Assembly: GCA_021297895.1 (NCBI GenBank)
Contig: JAJTHN010000028.1
Location: 1-57,150, forward strand
From: Phycisphaeraceae bacterium
GTDB lineage: Bacteria; Planctomycetota; Phycisphaerae; Phycisphaerales; UBA1924
Direction of reading: 5' to 3'
Length of the DNA: 57,150 nucleotides
Shown: one piece after another, positions 18,597 through 25,628 of the stretch
How the letters are laid out: every line of letters begins with the position of its first letter
Position numbering within the stretch: position 1 is the stretch's first letter
Translations under genes and position numbers: made by a program
Notes under the pieces: generated by a model
What the model was told of the DNA's origin: nothing
Database searches by the model: none
Seen by the model: only the letters and a program-made list of their open reading frames with translations

Positions 18597-18848
18597 CCGT
18601 TTATAAAATTCTCTGGCCCTGCGATCAGGGTTTTCCCGAGCTCTTCCTGGCATCCATCCGTGCCCTCCGGTCGAAGTCAACGGGCCCTCGGCGATAATGA
18701 TTCGTATTTTGTTTGGCTTTCTCTCGCTTGATCGCCACCCCCGGCCCTTTGGGGGGTCTATGCTCGAAGAGACGTCAACCTTCGGCGTGCACCCTGCCGG
18801 GCCCTTGCCGCCCCCCACCCGTGCCCGGCCGGCCGCCGCGTGTCCTGC

Positions 18849-20744
18849 ATGACCCATGTGTCCGACAGCGCGTCTTTCGGTGCCGACAACGACACCGCAT
18901 CCAGCACCGTCTTCGGTGGCGGGTCCGGTGTTGCATCCAACAGCGTCGATCGCTCACGCTCGGCGTCGAAGTCGGCGACCGAGCCGGTGTCCATCGAGAA
19001 GTTCCTGACCGATGGGTCGCTGGCCCGACTGTGCGACGAGATGACGCGCCTGACGGGCGTGCCGATCTGGCTGCGGGACCTTGACGGGCGTGTTGTCGTG
19101 CCGCGGGAAGGCGGGAAGCTGTGGGATCTGCAGAAGCCGGCCGAGGGCGCGCAGCGCGCGCATCAGCTCGTCGGTCTCTCGCTGCCGCGGCTGGAGTCGC
19201 AGCATCCGGATCACCCCGGCGGGCTTGACCTGTTCGTTGCGCCGCTGCGCACGCCCGATGGCGTCTGCGGATCGATCGTGATGCCGGCGGACTGGCGGGG
19301 TGATGATCCCTCCGGGCGGCGCGCTCTTGAGCGCGCTGTCACGCTCATGGCCAGCACGGCCAGCGAGAGCATCGAGGGGCAACTGGCGCTTCGTCAGCGT
19401 CTGGATGAACTCGGCGCGCTCTATCGACTCTCGTCGTTGCTGGTGCGCGCGCCCGATGCCAACACGATGCTCAACGCCGCCCTTGACCTGGCGCTGGATG
19501 TCCTCCGCCTGGACGCGGGGTCGATATCGATGGTCGATGAGCAGACCGGCGCACTGGTCCACCGCGCAACCCGCGGCCTGAGCGAAGAGTGGCTGAGCGA
19601 ATCGACACCCCTTTCCATCGACGGCATGCTGCGCGAGCGGGCGCTGCACGGCGATGTGGTGTGCGTGGCGGACCTTTGGCACGATGATCGCATCGCGGAC
19701 CCGCAGCGACCGCAGCAGGAGAACGTCATCTCCCTGATCGCCACAGGGCTGAGCAACGCGGGGTCGGTCGCGGGCGGTGCCGGCCCGAGCACGGGGCTGA
19801 TCAGGCTGTACAGCCGCACGCAGCGCGAGTTCACCCCGGCCGAGTGCGGCCTGCTGCGTTCGATCGCCGACCACGCCGCGATGGTCATCGCGATGCAGCG
19901 GCTTCGTGACCTGCGTGCCCAGGACGGGCACATCCGGCGGCAGGTCCGTCTGGCCGCGGATGTCCAGCGGCGAATGCTCTCGCGCTCGCGTCCGGACAAC
20001 CCGCGCTTCGACCTTGCGCACCTGTACGAGCCGAGTTTCCAGCTCGGCGGCGACTTCTATGACCTGTTCGAGAAGTCCTCTCACGGGCGCGAACTGGGCG
20101 TAGCCGTTGGCGATGTCGTGGGCAAGGGCGTGCCCGCGGCGATCCTGATGTCCGCCGTTCGCGCGAGCCTCCGCGCCATCGTCGCGGAGGAGTGGCGCTT
20201 GCAGGAGGTCATCCGCAAGGTGAATCTGGCGATGTGCCGCGACACGCTCGAGAGCGAGTTTGTCACGCTCTGGGCGGGCATCATCGATACCGACACGCTC
20301 GAACTCTCGTACTGCTCCGCGGGTCACGACCCGGCGCTGCTCTTCCGCAGGCCGAGCGGATCGACCGATGGCACGCCGGAGATCCTCGCTCTCGGCACCG
20401 AGGGCATGCCGGTGGGAATCGATCCGAGCGAGACGTACGAGGTCAAGTCGATCCGTCTGCGCGCCGGTGACGTGCTGGTCACATACACCGACGGAATCGG
20501 CGAGGCCAAGGACTTCGACAATCAGCGCTTCGGCCGCGAGCGCGTGGAGGCGGCGCTGGTCGAGCTGCTGCGCAGCGAGCCGAACGCCGGCGCGCAGCGG
20601 TGCGTGGATCATCTTGTCTGGCACGTTCGCCAGTTCAGCGGGCTGAAGCTCGCCGAGGATGACATCACGCTTGTCGTCGTGCGCGTGCGCGATGACGACG
20701 CGGCTGGCACCGCATCAAGCGGCGCTGCGGGGCGGGGGCGTTGA
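18849..20744 (+). CDS. PocR-like/GAF sensor with SpoIIE-type PP2C phosphatase
   Basis: A 631-residue cytoplasmic signalling protein. Residues about 45-190 resemble a PocR-type sensor (SLARLCDEMTRLTGVPIWLRDLDG). About 205-370 form a GAF domain (LYRLSSLLVRAPDANTMLNAALD...LIRLYSRTQREFTPAE). About 400-620 form a SpoIIE/RsbU PP2C phosphatase with the metal-binding segments in place: GGDFYDLF, GDVVGKGVPAAILMS, SAGHDPALLF, YTDGIGEA and a final EDDITLVVVRV. Such proteins dephosphorylate anti-anti-sigma factors in partner-switching pathways; no such partner is encoded here. A GTG at 18840 precedes the ATG at 18849; I use the ATG. The gene is divergent from tetR and its 3' end overlaps the next minus-strand gene by 30 nt. 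Confidence 0.88.
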   Translation: MTHVSDSASFGADNDTASSTVFGGGSGVASNSVDRSRSASKSATEPVSIEKFLTDGSLARLCDEMTRLTGVPIWLRDLDGRVVVPREGGKLWDLQKPAEGAQRAHQLVGLSLPRLESQHPDHPGGLDLFVAPLRTPDGVCGSIVMPADWRGDDPSGRRALERAVTLMASTASESIEGQLALRQRLDELGALYRLSSLLVRAPDANTMLNAALDLALDVLRLDAGSISMVDEQTGALVHRATRGLSEEWLSESTPLSIDGMLRERALHGDVVCVADLWHDDRIADPQRPQQENVISLIATGLSNAGSVAGGAGPSTGLIRLYSRTQREFTPAECGLLRSIADHAAMVIAMQRLRDLRAQDGHIRRQVRLAADVQRRMLSRSRPDNPRFDLAHLYEPSFQLGGDFYDLFEKSSHGRELGVAVGDVVGKGVPAAILMSAVRASLRAIVAEEWRLQEVIRKVNLAMCRDTLESEFVTLWAGIIDTDTLELSYCSAGHDPALLFRRPSGSTDGTPEILALGTEGMPVGIDPSETYEVKSIRLRAGDVLVTYTDGIGEAKDFDNQRFGRERVEAALVELLRSEPNAGAQRCVDHLVWHVRQFSGLKLAEDDITLVVVRVRDDDAAGTASSGAAGRGR

Positions 20745-22384: not shown

Positions 22385-22780
22385 ATGACACAGTCTGGCG
22401 ATACGAACGCGTGGTCGATTGAAATGACCCTCAAGGCCGCGCAGATTCAGTCCCGCCGAGAAGTCGGCGGCAGCGACAAGCGTCTCAAGCCCCGCCTGCC
22501 GTTTCTCCGCACCGTCCGCATCAGGGGCGAGCAATCCGCCGGGACCTATGGCCCCGAGGTCAAGTGCCGCGGCAACAACCTGAGCCAAACGGGCATGGGC
22601 CTGCGAAGCCCTGTGGCCTTCGAGCAGGGCCGGATCGTGCGGATCGAGTGTTCCATCAACGGTGAAGCGAGCATGCTGCTCCGCGCCGTGGTGCGGATGT
22701 GCAAGCCCCGTCCTGATGGATCGTTCACGCTCGGCGTGCAGTTTGTCGCCGATGAGGAAAACAGCACAAGGGCCGCGTAA
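22385..22780 (+). CDS. PilZ-domain protein (putative cyclic-di-GMP receptor)
   Basis: A 131-residue single-domain protein. The PilZ signature is present: an R-x-x-x-R box (RLKPR, about 33-37) followed about 25 residues later by N-L-S-Q-T-G (N/D-x-S-x-x-G), then the beta-barrel strands VRIECSINGEASMLLRAVVRM and FTLGVQFV. These residues bind cyclic-di-GMP in known PilZ domains, so ligand binding is expected. A short N-terminal extension (MTQSGDTNAWSIEMTLKAAQ) has no clear role. A diguanylate cyclase gene lies at 46701. GGAG precedes the ATG. Confidence 0.85.
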   Translation: MTQSGDTNAWSIEMTLKAAQIQSRREVGGSDKRLKPRLPFLRTVRIRGEQSAGTYGPEVKCRGNNLSQTGMGLRSPVAFEQGRIVRIECSINGEASMLLRAVVRMCKPRPDGSFTLGVQFVADEENSTRAA

Positions 22781-22825: not shown

Positions 22826-23767
22826 TCAGCCGTCGATCTTCCGCAGACCGAGACCGTACTCGGCGAGCTTCTGCCGGACTTCCGAAAGCGAAGTCGCGCC
22901 GAAGTTCTTCACGCCGAGCAGTTCCGCCTCCGTGTGCGCGACCAGATCGCCCAGCGACTGAATGTTCAGCAGCTGCAGCGCCTTGCGGGCTCGCACGGAC
23001 AGATTCAGCTCGCTCACGCCCTTGTTCAGGACGGCCTCGGTGTTGGAACCCTTGAGGCTGTCGATCATCGCGCGGCGGGCGGCGCGGTGCGCGTCATCAC
23101 GGCTCTGGCCGAGTCGCAGGCCCTTGGCCGCGAGCATGGTCTTGATCTCGACGAGGCTGCTCTCGCCGAAGTTCTTGTAGCTGAGCAGTTCGGCCTCGGT
23201 CGTGCGGACCAGATCGCCCAGCGTGCGGATGTTCATCTTCTTGAGGCAGGTACGGGCGCGAACGGAGAGTTCGAAGTCCGTCACCGGCGTGTCGAGCAGA
23301 GCGGATCGCTTCTGCTTCTCCTTGTCGTGGTCATCATCGCTGACCATGGTCTTGGAGGCGATGACGTCCTTCATGTACAGGCGGGCGCGCGGGTGGTTCG
23401 GGTCCGTCTCCAGGATCTGGCGCAGGCAGCGCTCGGAGCGGACGAAGTCGCCGCGATCCTCGTAGGCGACGGCGAGGTTCAGCAGGGCGTTGATCGGCGC
23501 CGGCGGGTTGTCGACGGCGCGCTCGTACATACGAAGCGCCTCGTCCTCCTCGCCGGAGATATCCAGCAGGAAGCCCAGGCGGAAGAGCAGCTTGCCGTCG
23601 GCCGGGTCGCTGGCGACGGCCTTGCGGTACGACTCGATCGCGCTGAGGCGGTTGCCCTGAGCCTCGAACCGCTCACCCTCGGCCGCCATGCGTGCCGCCT
23701 GAACGCTGTCGCGCTGAACTTCCGACGCACCGACAACGACATCCAACGGATGAACCGTGTTCGACAT
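22826..23767 (-). CDS. TPR protein with two RNA polymerase alpha C-terminal domains
   Basis: A 313-residue cytoplasmic protein. Residues about 24-130 form three TPR units (GNRLSAIESYRKAVASDP, GEEDEALRMYERAV, FVRSERCLRQILETDP). Residues 163-220 and 252-308 are two copies of the RNA polymerase alpha-subunit C-terminal domain (alphaCTD), each with the helix-hairpin-like ending L-x-x-K-N-F-G-x-x-S-L-x-E-(I/V). The DNA-contacting Arg (E. coli R265) is kept in both (R170, R259), as is the Gly of the hairpin (G201, G290). But N268 is T in the first copy and K in the second, and K298 is S or T. It has no assembly domain, so it is not RpoA. Inference: a DNA- or sigma/activator-binding adaptor. GGAG lies 9 nt before the ATG. 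Confidence 0.9.
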   Translation of the reverse strand: MSNTVHPLDVVVGASEVQRDSVQAARMAAEGERFEAQGNRLSAIESYRKAVASDPADGKLLFRLGFLLDISGEEDEALRMYERAVDNPPAPINALLNLAVAYEDRGDFVRSERCLRQILETDPNHPRARLYMKDVIASKTMVSDDDHDKEKQKRSALLDTPVTDFELSVRARTCLKKMNIRTLGDLVRTTEAELLSYKNFGESSLVEIKTMLAAKGLRLGQSRDDAHRAARRAMIDSLKGSNTEAVLNKGVSELNLSVRARKALQLLNIQSLGDLVAHTEAELLGVKNFGATSLSEVRQKLAEYGLGLRKIDG

Positions 23768-23932: not shown

Positions 23933-25474
23933 TCAGTCTCGCGTCTGAGACGCTCGCCCGTCTAGGTCGATGCCCGAGGCCGGGTCGTGCAGGCCTTCGA
24001 GCGACGATCCGGAGCTTGCGCAGGTCGCAAGGCTCGCCGCGGCGGTCTCCGGCGTGTGGACCAGCCGGATGCTGCGCCACGGACCGAAGAAGAAGCGGTA
24101 GGCCATGAGCAACCCGAACAGGACGATGTACGCCGCGGCGGCGATCCACGGGCCCAGGGCCTCGATCTGCGGCACAAGTGCGACCGCCGCGTGGCCCCCG
24201 CCGACGATCACCGTCCAACTCAGAACGAGGGTCATGACACCCGGCCAGATTGTGTCGCCCGCGCCGCGGAGAACGCCGACCAGGGTGACGCCGACGGCGT
24301 CGAAGATCTGAAACAGCGCGGCGACGATCATGATCTTCACGCCGACATCGATCACCTGCGCGGCTCTTTCCGGCGACAAAGAGGGGTCCATGAAGAGCCT
24401 GACCATCGGCTCTCGGAAGATGAGGATGCACGCGGCGCAAGCGCCCATGTAGATCATCGCGATCTTGATCCCGAGCATCGCGCGCTGGCGGGCCAGTTCG
24501 GGCTGTCCGGCACCGAGATACCGCCCGACGACCGCCGTGAGCGCAAAGCCGATGCCGACCGCGGGCATGAATGACAGGTGCATGTACCGCAGCACGATCG
24601 CGCTGGCGGCGATCTGGTCCTTGCCGAAGTGCCCGACGAGCACCATGACAAAGTACGCCCAGGTGATCATCTCGCTGCCGAACATCAGCGCCGGGGCCCA
24701 GCCAAGGCGCGCGATCTCGCGCACGCGATCAGCCCGAAAACGCCACGCGGCTCGCGTCGCGAACCTGGCGTTCAGCGAAGGACCAAGGAACACGCAGAGC
24801 GGGATGATGGCCTCCACAAGCGTGCCCAGCACCGTGCCCCACGCGGCGCCCGCAACGCCAAGTTCGGGCGCGCCAAGGTTGCCGTAAATGAACACCCAGT
24901 TTCCGAAGACGTTCGTCGCGTTGCCGGCCAGAGCCGCGGCGAGCACGACCATGGGCATGTGCATGCCGTAGAAGTACTGTGTGATGGAACGCGTGATCAG
25001 CCCGGGAAGCGCAAAGAAGAGCAGGATCTGGGCGTACGACGTCGAGTGCGAGACCAGCGCCGGGTCATCGCTCATCGCCCGAAACGCCAGCGGCGCGGCC
25101 AGAGCGACCGGCACGAGCACCGCCAGCCACCACAGAACACAGATCCAAACCCCGTTCCACGCGTACGACGGTCCCTCGCGCGCCTTGCCGGCGCCGAGAT
25201 TCTGCGCGACAAAGGTGTTGACCACTCCCAGCAGGCCCGCCATGAGCGACTGGGGAACCCACGCCATGAGCCCACCGTTAAACTGGGCAGCGATGTACAC
25301 AGGGTCCGCGGGGGTGATGCGCGAGACCATGAGGCCATCGACGAACTGCATCGCGGTGTAGGAGGTCATCGTCGCAACGCTCGGCGCGGCGATACGGAGA
25401 ATCTCCCAGAGACCGCTGGCGGCCGTCGGCGTCGCGGGGTGCGCGGGCTGGTGTGATGGCTCCGAATTCGACAT
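23933..25474 (-). CDS. MATE-family multidrug/cation exporter
   Basis: A 513-residue membrane protein with about 12 membrane segments in two similar halves. It begins with LRIAAPSVATMTSYTAMQFVDGLMVSR and includes the repeated MATE motif near each half's start (VNTFVAQNLGAGKAREG in the first half, GFALTAVVGRYLGAGQPELARQ in the second). MATE proteins exchange cationic drugs or metabolites for Na+ or H+. The 35-residue C-terminal tail (CASSGSSLEG...) is hydrophilic and unusual. The open frame runs upstream to 25567. A TAAGAT box 7 nt before the ATG at 25474 supports that start and a leaderless mRNA. Confidence 0.9.
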   Translation of the reverse strand: MSNSEPSHQPAHPATPTAASGLWEILRIAAPSVATMTSYTAMQFVDGLMVSRITPADPVYIAAQFNGGLMAWVPQSLMAGLLGVVNTFVAQNLGAGKAREGPSYAWNGVWICVLWWLAVLVPVALAAPLAFRAMSDDPALVSHSTSYAQILLFFALPGLITRSITQYFYGMHMPMVVLAAALAGNATNVFGNWVFIYGNLGAPELGVAGAAWGTVLGTLVEAIIPLCVFLGPSLNARFATRAAWRFRADRVREIARLGWAPALMFGSEMITWAYFVMVLVGHFGKDQIAASAIVLRYMHLSFMPAVGIGFALTAVVGRYLGAGQPELARQRAMLGIKIAMIYMGACAACILIFREPMVRLFMDPSLSPERAAQVIDVGVKIMIVAALFQIFDAVGVTLVGVLRGAGDTIWPGVMTLVLSWTVIVGGGHAAVALVPQIEALGPWIAAAAYIVLFGLLMAYRFFFGPWRSIRLVHTPETAAASLATCASSGSSLEGLHDPASGIDLDGRASQTRD

Positions 25475-25481
25475 CGAGCGG

Positions 25482-25487
25482 ATCTTA
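25482..25487 (-). promoter_or_regulatory. -10-like TAAGAT, 7 nt before the MATE start
   Basis: On the minus strand TAAGAT (four of six bases of TATAAT) ends 7 nt before the ATG at 25474. No Shine-Dalgarno is present between, so it fits the leaderless pattern seen at other genes here. Confidence 0.35.
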
Positions 25488-25628
25488 GTGCCCGCAAACC
25501 TCACCACCGGACGGAATCCGACGTATTGAAGCAACGTCCGAGAATTCCATGCGACCACCTGCTTCACGGGGGCATCAGCGGCAAGTGGTGGCGTTACAGA
25601 TGATTCCGTCGTTTCAAACGATCAATTC

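Follow-up and report, generated by a model that had tools for sequence, protein, structure and literature searches.

Two copies of the C-terminal domain of the RNA polymerase alpha subunit (alphaCTD), joined to tetratricopeptide repeats (TPR), are found in a single small protein of a Phycisphaeraceae bacterium, raising the question of what such a pair does when it is carried outside RpoA. The window, meaning the whole stretch of DNA that was analysed (57,150 nucleotides), contains the gene on its minus strand, with an ATG start at 23767 and a TGA stop at 22826-22828, and the encoded chain of 313 aa runs in the order three TPR units, long helix, first alphaCTD (D1), linker and second alphaCTD (D2). 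The answer proposed here, to which we give about an even chance on the strength of sequence and structure models, is that the protein would be an old, phylum-wide transcription adaptor, its TPR serving as a receptor and its alphaCTDs being delivered to promoters in trans. The features of the gene are as follows.

22826-23767, minus strand: coding sequence of the TPR-alphaCTD-alphaCTD protein, 313 aa (P0002), an open reading frame for which 277 of 294 Planctomycetota genomes have a relative at E <= 1e-20
23393-23707, minus strand: three TPR units, residues ~21-125 (Pfam TPR_2 three times; helices with pLDDT 96-98; conservation)
23294-23392, minus strand: continuous helix from the TPR into D1, residues 126-158 (AlphaFold2 model, pLDDT blocks 87-98; conservation)
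23129-23323, minus strand: D1, first alphaCTD, residues 149-213 (PF03118, 75.5 bits; VIA and Foldseek matches)
23258-23260, minus strand: Arg170 of D1, equivalent to E. coli R265 (from aligning the protein with E. coli RpoA; present in 56 of 57 aligned proteins and in 80 of the 80 nearest loci)
23030-23101, minus strand: linker between D1 and D2, residues 223-246, of varying length among relatives (gapped alignment columns)
22859-23041, minus strand: D2, second alphaCTD, residues 243-303 (PF03118, 68.4 bits; VIA match)
22991-22993, minus strand: Arg259 of D2, equivalent to E. coli R265 (kept in 55/55 and 80/80)

Domain Organization and Predicted Fold

The first-pass annotation had described three TPR units and two alphaCTDs without the RpoA assembly domain, and Pfam confirms this layout: PF03118 (RNA_pol_A_CTD) matches over two stretches (130.8 bits, E 1.5e-38, the gathering cut-off being 23.8 bits) and TPR_2 over three (47.1 bits against a cut-off of 27), and the RpoA assembly families PF01193 and PF01000 are absent among the 25 of 26 matched Pfam families that are listed. 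In a phmmer search of the PDB, solved alphaCTDs were matched (e.g., 1coo, 1.2e-14) beside TPR proteins. A longer form is common elsewhere in Planctomycetota, with open frames often of 430-500 aa and extra TPR sequence in those tested, the short form being typical for the relatives of the window's protein.

Regarding the structure, the whole protein was modelled by AlphaFold2 from an alignment of 42 sequences, resulting in a mean pLDDT of 93.1 and a pTM of 0.61, from which the individual parts are well predicted and their relative placement is less sure. When this model was used in a fold search, TPR structures filled the matches listed, as fits a TPR fold, and for that reason the two CTDs were predicted and searched separately. 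The two-CTD segment modelled alone has a mean pLDDT of 85.1, and Foldseek matched it to 9zum_B, a Caulobacter alphaCTD on AT-rich DNA, at 0.6 Å over 65 residues with 52% identity, a match assigned to D1 by that identity, as Foldseek gives no residue range. With VIA, D1 (model residues 18-76) matched 8r6s_B of a plastid RNA polymerase (Z 10.8, 1.1 Å over 59 residues), and D2 (model residues 105-171) matched 8y5t_A2 (Z 13.8, 1.1 Å over 67 residues). Structure prediction thus placed both CTDs with alphaCTD structures rather than with a different fold, and D1 and D2 are true alphaCTDs by sequence family and modelled fold. A generic helix-hairpin-helix unit in place of an alphaCTD was ruled out by the same predicted fold and by score, HHH_5 reaching 15.8 bits, under its cut-off of 27.

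The alphaCTD is a relative of the helix-hairpin-helix, a unit by which many proteins bind DNA without specificity. This kinship would suit a DNA-binding adaptor outside transcription, engaged in chromosome organisation or repair, whose tandem domains would ignore promoters and whose TPR would recruit a factor, as would the slightly more basic character of D1 and D2 compared with the RpoA CTD (mean charge +0.8 and +1.2 versus 0.0). Such a role is nevertheless very unlikely, as the sequence is specific to alphaCTDs (PF03118 at 130.8 bits versus HHH_5 at 15.8) and the acidic residues at 259 and 261 (E. coli numbering) are kept.

Relationship with RpoA

The earlier claim that the protein cannot be RpoA held up, since no assembly domain is listed and the NCBIfam rpoA model scores 127.8 bits, under its cut-off of 227.8. 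A separate, intact RpoA, bearing PF01193, PF01000 and one CTD, is encoded on another contig of the same genome, which is 97% complete and has RpoA, D1 and D2 as its only PF03118 matches. A degenerate rpoA copy was also discarded, the gene being conserved phylum-wide and carrying TPR. In another planctomycete genome, of 90% completeness and 5% contamination, two rpoA-like genes were seen (G058:C343:11895-12863 and G058:C26:32544-33515), which may be an artefact.

Distribution within Planctomycetota

A survey of the fusion across Planctomycetota, suggested as a check together with the first-pass annotation, was made with the window protein as query in 294 genomes drawn from its phylum. Matches at E <= 1e-20 were found in 277 of them, some spanning only part of the query and the weakest being 7.5e-29 (G091); at E <= 0.001, all 294 have some match. 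Among the 17 genomes lacking a match at E <= 1e-20 (G006, G008, G031, G053, G067, G075, G120, G123, G143, G158, G176, G210, G214, G223, G255, G271 and G282), only G031 and G143 have, in rounded values, at least 90% completeness with no more than 5% contamination, and in G143 there are pieces at a contig end.

The number of PF03118 matches per genome is exactly three in 93 of 119 genomes, as expected from RpoA plus one fusion, at least three in 107, fewer than three in 12 and more than three in 14. Regarding the nearest named loci, the titles of 77 of 80 contain Phycisphaerae, Phycisphaerales, Planctomycetota or another planctomycete name. For G088 and G275 (loci L067 and L068), both of family f48, the TPR protein has apparently only one alphaCTD, D2 being found neither by Pfam in G088 nor in G275, where the alignment alone was used.

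Conserved and Divergent Residues of the Two Domains

Residues are given in E. coli numbering and were counted in 57 proteins, a set composed of the 30 best-listed matches, 11 chosen neighbourhoods and 16 proteins from chosen genomes, and hence not a random draw, from which duplicates (L002, L003, L034-L042 and L078) and fragments (L070 and L071) were dropped; RpoA is represented by the top 30 matches among 59 planctomycete genomes. We take N294, G296, S299 and E302 to be DNA-contact positions. R265 is kept in 56/57 D1, 55/55 D2 and 30/30 RpoA, as well as in both domains of 80/80 nearest loci, alongside N294 (56/57 D1, 50/55 D2), G296 (57/57 D1, 51/55 D2, 30/30 RpoA), S299 (54/57 D1, 48/55 D2 and 21/30 RpoA, with T in 9) and E302 (57/57 D1, 55/55 D2, 29/30 RpoA). 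The window's protein keeps the equivalents of these five residues in D1 and D2, and the alignment bears out the initial statement that R265 and the hairpin glycine, G296, have equivalents in both domains.

Changed equivalents of N268 and K298 had also been pointed out, and they are indeed present in the window, where D1 has T and D2 has K at 268, and D1 has S and D2 has T at 298. As features distinguishing the fusion from RpoA, they stand only in part. T at 298 is usual in RpoA (29/30), as it is in D1 (45/57) and D2 (47/55), so residue 298 was rejected as a special change, being common to planctomycete RpoA. N268 is kept in 49/57 D1 and 29/30 RpoA, and K/R is found in 46/55 D2. Among the 80 nearest loci, T occupies position 268 of D1 at 41 and N at the other 39. 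In E. coli, R265 and N268 contact DNA, and N268T is the strongest of the rpoA mutations reported in PMC11434276, abolishing PBAD activity; D1 of the window, bearing T268, may therefore bind DNA more weakly than most D1, unless the extra basic residues compensate.

A clearer signature of D1 in the alignment is the change of K297 to E/D, along with aromatic 260, K/R267, hydrophobic 273 and K/R310. Position 297 is D/E in 56/57 D1, compared to K/R in 28/30 and D/E in 2/30 RpoA, which amounts to a charge reversal. The other differences from RpoA are aromatic 260 (57/57), K/R267 (57/57), K/R272 (49/57), hydrophobic 273 (56/57) and K/R310 (53/57), with aromatic 292 as a further D1-specific position. 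D2 has K/R267 (46/55) and hydrophobic 273 (51/55) in common with D1, position 273 being usually E in planctomycete RpoA (18/30). Meanwhile, positions 259 and 261 are D/E each in 56/57 D1. An E at 297, like the D1 signature, was also observed in RpoA's own CTD in two genomes of one family (L088 and L096, RpoA of G048 and G024; family f30).

With charge reversed at 297, N268 lost from D2 and a hydrophobic residue at 273, the domains are not simple RpoA copies, which keeps two further readings under consideration. It could be that the alphaCTD folds now bind a protein (e.g., RNA polymerase, NusA or a sigma factor), DNA binding having been lost, as would suit K297 turned into D/E in 56/57 D1, the D1-specific aromatic 260, K/R267, hydrophobic 273, aromatic 292 and K/R310, and the change of N268 in D2 and in 41/80 nearest D1. 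However, the retention of R265, G296, S299 and E302 in D1 and D2 would be hard to explain without DNA contact, and we regard this reading as distinctly unlikely. Unlikely as well, if less so, is a decoy or antagonist, where free alphaCTDs would compete with the RpoA CTD for activators, sigma region 4 or UP DNA, being switched by the TPR ligand. In favour of a decoy, the positions conserved in the RpoA CTD are largely conserved here as well, in a chain that has no assembly domain, and E297 together with T268/K268 could make protein binding independent of DNA binding; yet a pure competitor should keep an RpoA-like surface, and 273 is hydrophobic in 56/57 D1 and 51/55 D2 versus E in 18/30 RpoA. 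In addition, a core role would explain the retention in 277/294 genomes more readily than an antagonist that can be switched.

Conservation and Origin

Comparing the domains in 26 matched genomes over 55 columns, the mean pairwise identity is 70.6% for D1, 57.3% for the RpoA CTD and 48.6% for D2, D1 exceeding the RpoA CTD in 279 of 325 genome pairs. The matched set comprises the 28 genomes with both genes minus G055, whose RpoA frame is lost in the CTD, and G034, which shares its genus with G002. Over longer stretches in the same 26 genomes, the TPR has a mean identity of 39.8% and the N-terminal part of RpoA one of 59.5%. As D1 is the best conserved and D2 was not found in G088 and G275, D1 is the core of the protein. 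Under a somewhat unlikely but still credible reading, the protein would be a general initiation factor specific to Planctomycetota, that is, a separate TPR protein supplying a second alphaCTD pair in trans and sharing promoter recognition with RpoA, with D1 the more constrained.

On a tree of 80 of the 150 alphaCTD domains over 66 columns, which leaves 41 of 76 inner branches open and gives D2 some very long branches, each kind of domain falls into one group: D1 (29 rows, SH-aLRT 95), D2 (28 rows, SH-aLRT 88) and the planctomycete RpoA CTDs (15 rows, SH-aLRT 56). The fusion would have arisen before Planctomycetota diversified, and D2 may have originated by tandem duplication inside the fusion, K/R267 and hydrophobic 273 being common to both domains.

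Occurrence outside the Phylum

The sampling outside Planctomycetota covered one phylum, entered via a metagenome-assembled genome (MAG) titled Dehalococcoidia, from which title Chloroflexota was inferred. In 200 other genomes of this comparison phylum, no match was better than 6.3e-14, and the best matches listed fall in the alphaCTD part of the query; there are weak matches over parts of both regions, such as query 43-202 in G411 (1.2e-7) and query 154-304 in G455 (2.4e-7). The one fusion of the comparison phylum lies in the Dehalococcoidia-titled MAG itself, on a 3.5-kb contig (L126, CALMIW010000452.1), and is probably a bin contamination, given that the 200 other genomes have no comparable match. 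Set against 200 other genomes of one phylum, the protein may be particular to Planctomycetes, the narrower form in which the suggestion of a protein unique to them stands.

In the comparison phylum, 100 other genomes include 4 with at least three PF03118 matches (G315, G323, G340 and G375). Four odd frames from it, inspected by eye (G334, G340, G375 and G389), include no TPR fusion, the G334 frame being NusA-like and the others large, with a sigma-4-like helix-turn-helix. Large proteins with alphaCTD-like segments were observed there at L219 3069-5000, L221 49-2691 and L222 920-5758, bearing by eye a sigma-region-4-like motif, GITRERVRQIE in two and YVTRERARQLE in the third. A further fusion was seen on a 436-kb contig titled 'Cyanobacteria bacterium CYA' (L121, RHKP01000001.1); this title is probably wrong, since a sample of its phylum was matched exactly where the phylum of the window is matched, and the phylum of the record was not counted as a second group.

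Regarding mobile elements, no fusion was found in 72,556 plasmid records (E 1e-8), of which 27 matched, each over one alphaCTD region, nor in 50,697 phage records (E 1e-3), of which 17 matched and 15 are listed; none in either collection spans 80% of the query. A horizontal or mobile origin was ruled out on this basis, the sole viral-contig match being a lone alphaCTD. That contig (L189 4863-5261, IMGVR_UViG_3300046678_000278) encodes a free-standing alphaCTD protein of 132 aa (PF03118, 2.6e-17), its gene lying just upstream of an ORF that resembles thymidylate synthase by eye, and no PHROG family matches the protein.

Genomic Neighbourhood

The genes around the fusion in the window are the following.

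23933-25567, minus strand: MATE exporter, upstream of the fusion gene and 165 bases off
22385-22780, convergent to the fusion gene: PilZ-domain protein (3.6e-10)
18840-20744, further from the fusion gene: GAF-SpoIIE phosphatase

The PilZ-domain protein and the GAF-SpoIIE phosphatase are possibly signalling neighbours. The hairpin that may form behind the stop of the fusion gene is not significant (z -1.53). When 31 neighbourhoods were compared by blastp clusters, and the 25 largest clusters examined, several of which are antisense frames, neighbours were shared only at the level of lineages: relatives of the MATE exporter at 8 loci, 7 of these in the window's class, murA at 5 and tgt at 4, the last two named by eye and all three counted as present in a neighbourhood rather than as adjacent to the fusion gene. 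By eye, no RNA polymerase or sigma gene was recognised in those 25 clusters of the 31 neighbourhoods, which counts against the transcription adaptor.

Proposed Mode of Action

The TPR asparagine N97 is kept in 57/57 aligned proteins and 80/80 nearest loci, and its position is presumably that of the asparagine that meets the peptide backbone in TPRs of the OGT and clamp types. This full conservation makes a peptide ligand in the TPR groove plausible. The joining helix is also conserved, with D134 in 56/57, S138 in 51/57 and M141 in 49/57. In the adaptor that we propose, a partner protein or peptide would sit in the TPR groove, which the long helix links to D1, and would in this way be coupled to promoters. 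D1 would dock on upstream promoter DNA, in the AT-rich minor groove, via R265, N294, G296, S299 and E302, and might use its conserved acidic patch at 259/261 to lie beside an activator or sigma region 4, in a manner similar to the RpoA CTD. D2 would offer a second, looser contact, the D1 and D2 pair mimicking the two CTDs of RNA polymerase. The presence of a pair of alphaCTDs in a single chain is reminiscent of the UP subsites, two in number, with one alpha subunit contacting each (PMC2613000, in the available part of its text). Altogether, binding to DNA, sigma, RNA polymerase or an activator, a TPR ligand, and activation rather than repression are what we infer for this protein.

In favour of the adaptor are the family and fold of the domains, the separate RpoA, the presence in 277/294 genomes, the single D1 and D2 groups and the higher identity of D1 than of the RpoA CTD; the D1 alignment likewise suggests it, with DNA-contact positions and the acidic 259/261 patch kept and extra basic residues at 267 and 272. 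On the other side, the charge reversal of D1 at 297 adjoins the DNA-contact position 298 and may disfavour docking, as may T268 in D1 of the window, N268T being the strongest among the rpoA mutations reported in PMC11434276. D2 weighs against the adaptor as well, having K/R for N268 (46/55) and the lowest conservation of the alphaCTDs (48.6%), and not being found in G088 and G275.

Comparison with Known Systems

The closest comparison is the alphaCTD of RpoA (PF03118), with which D1 and D2 share the family score, the predicted fold and, mostly, R265, N294, G296, S299 and E302. Unlike RpoA, the fusion has no assembly domain, is joined to TPR and carries two CTDs in one chain, D1 differing from the RpoA CTD by D/E297, aromatic 260 and hydrophobic 273, and D2 by K/R268.

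The PglW kinase of BREX is also a non-RpoA protein with an alphaCTD-like segment. Its PADLOC model matches D1 at 31.7 bits, the best stretch covering 76 of 1403 model positions, far from full length, and its NCBIfam model reaches 34.4 bits over two stretches of the fusion protein against a cut-off of 990. PglW models have 1391-1413 positions, whereas the fusion has 313 aa, is phylum-wide and has no kinase among the Pfam families listed. Judging by these PglW model matches to D1, alphaCTD-like segments outside RpoA are already known.

AfsR/SARP proteins (BTAD-NOD-TPR) resemble the fusion in being TPR regulators that act with sigma region 4 and the RpoA CTD; however, AfsR contacts the alphaCTD and carries none, its DNA binding being via an OmpR-type domain (PMC10936776, in the available part of its text). 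The BTAD score of the fusion protein is 14.8 bits, under the Pfam cut-off of 22.1, placing it outside the SARP/AfsR family. The acidic repeats of E. coli NusA are tandem helix-hairpin-helix units, and in this arrangement they and other generic tandem units are similar to D1 and D2, from which they differ in that the HHH_5 score of the fusion is under the cut-off and its alphaCTD-type residues are conserved.

Databases presumably annotate such proteins as alphaCTD-containing. Searching the literature for the fusion, for its domains in Planctomycetes and for essential genes, none of the matches listed, from a collection with few subscription papers, describes a TPR-alphaCTD fusion, and the words TPR and tetratricopeptide are absent from the main text of the Planctopirus limnophila essential-gene paper, in the part available. 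A transposon library has been published for P. limnophila, a planctomycete open to genetic work (PMC10632474).

Implications for Planctomycetota

The presence of the fusion in 277/294 genomes, with a D1 more conserved than the polymerase's own CTD, points to a piece of the core transcription machinery of Planctomycetota and supplies one more candidate for study in a phylum whose molecular biology is little known. It also allows a direct test of whether alphaCTD function can be provided in trans in a bacterium. If the reading as a general initiation factor is true, upstream promoter recognition in Planctomycetota would be split between RpoA and a dedicated adaptor.
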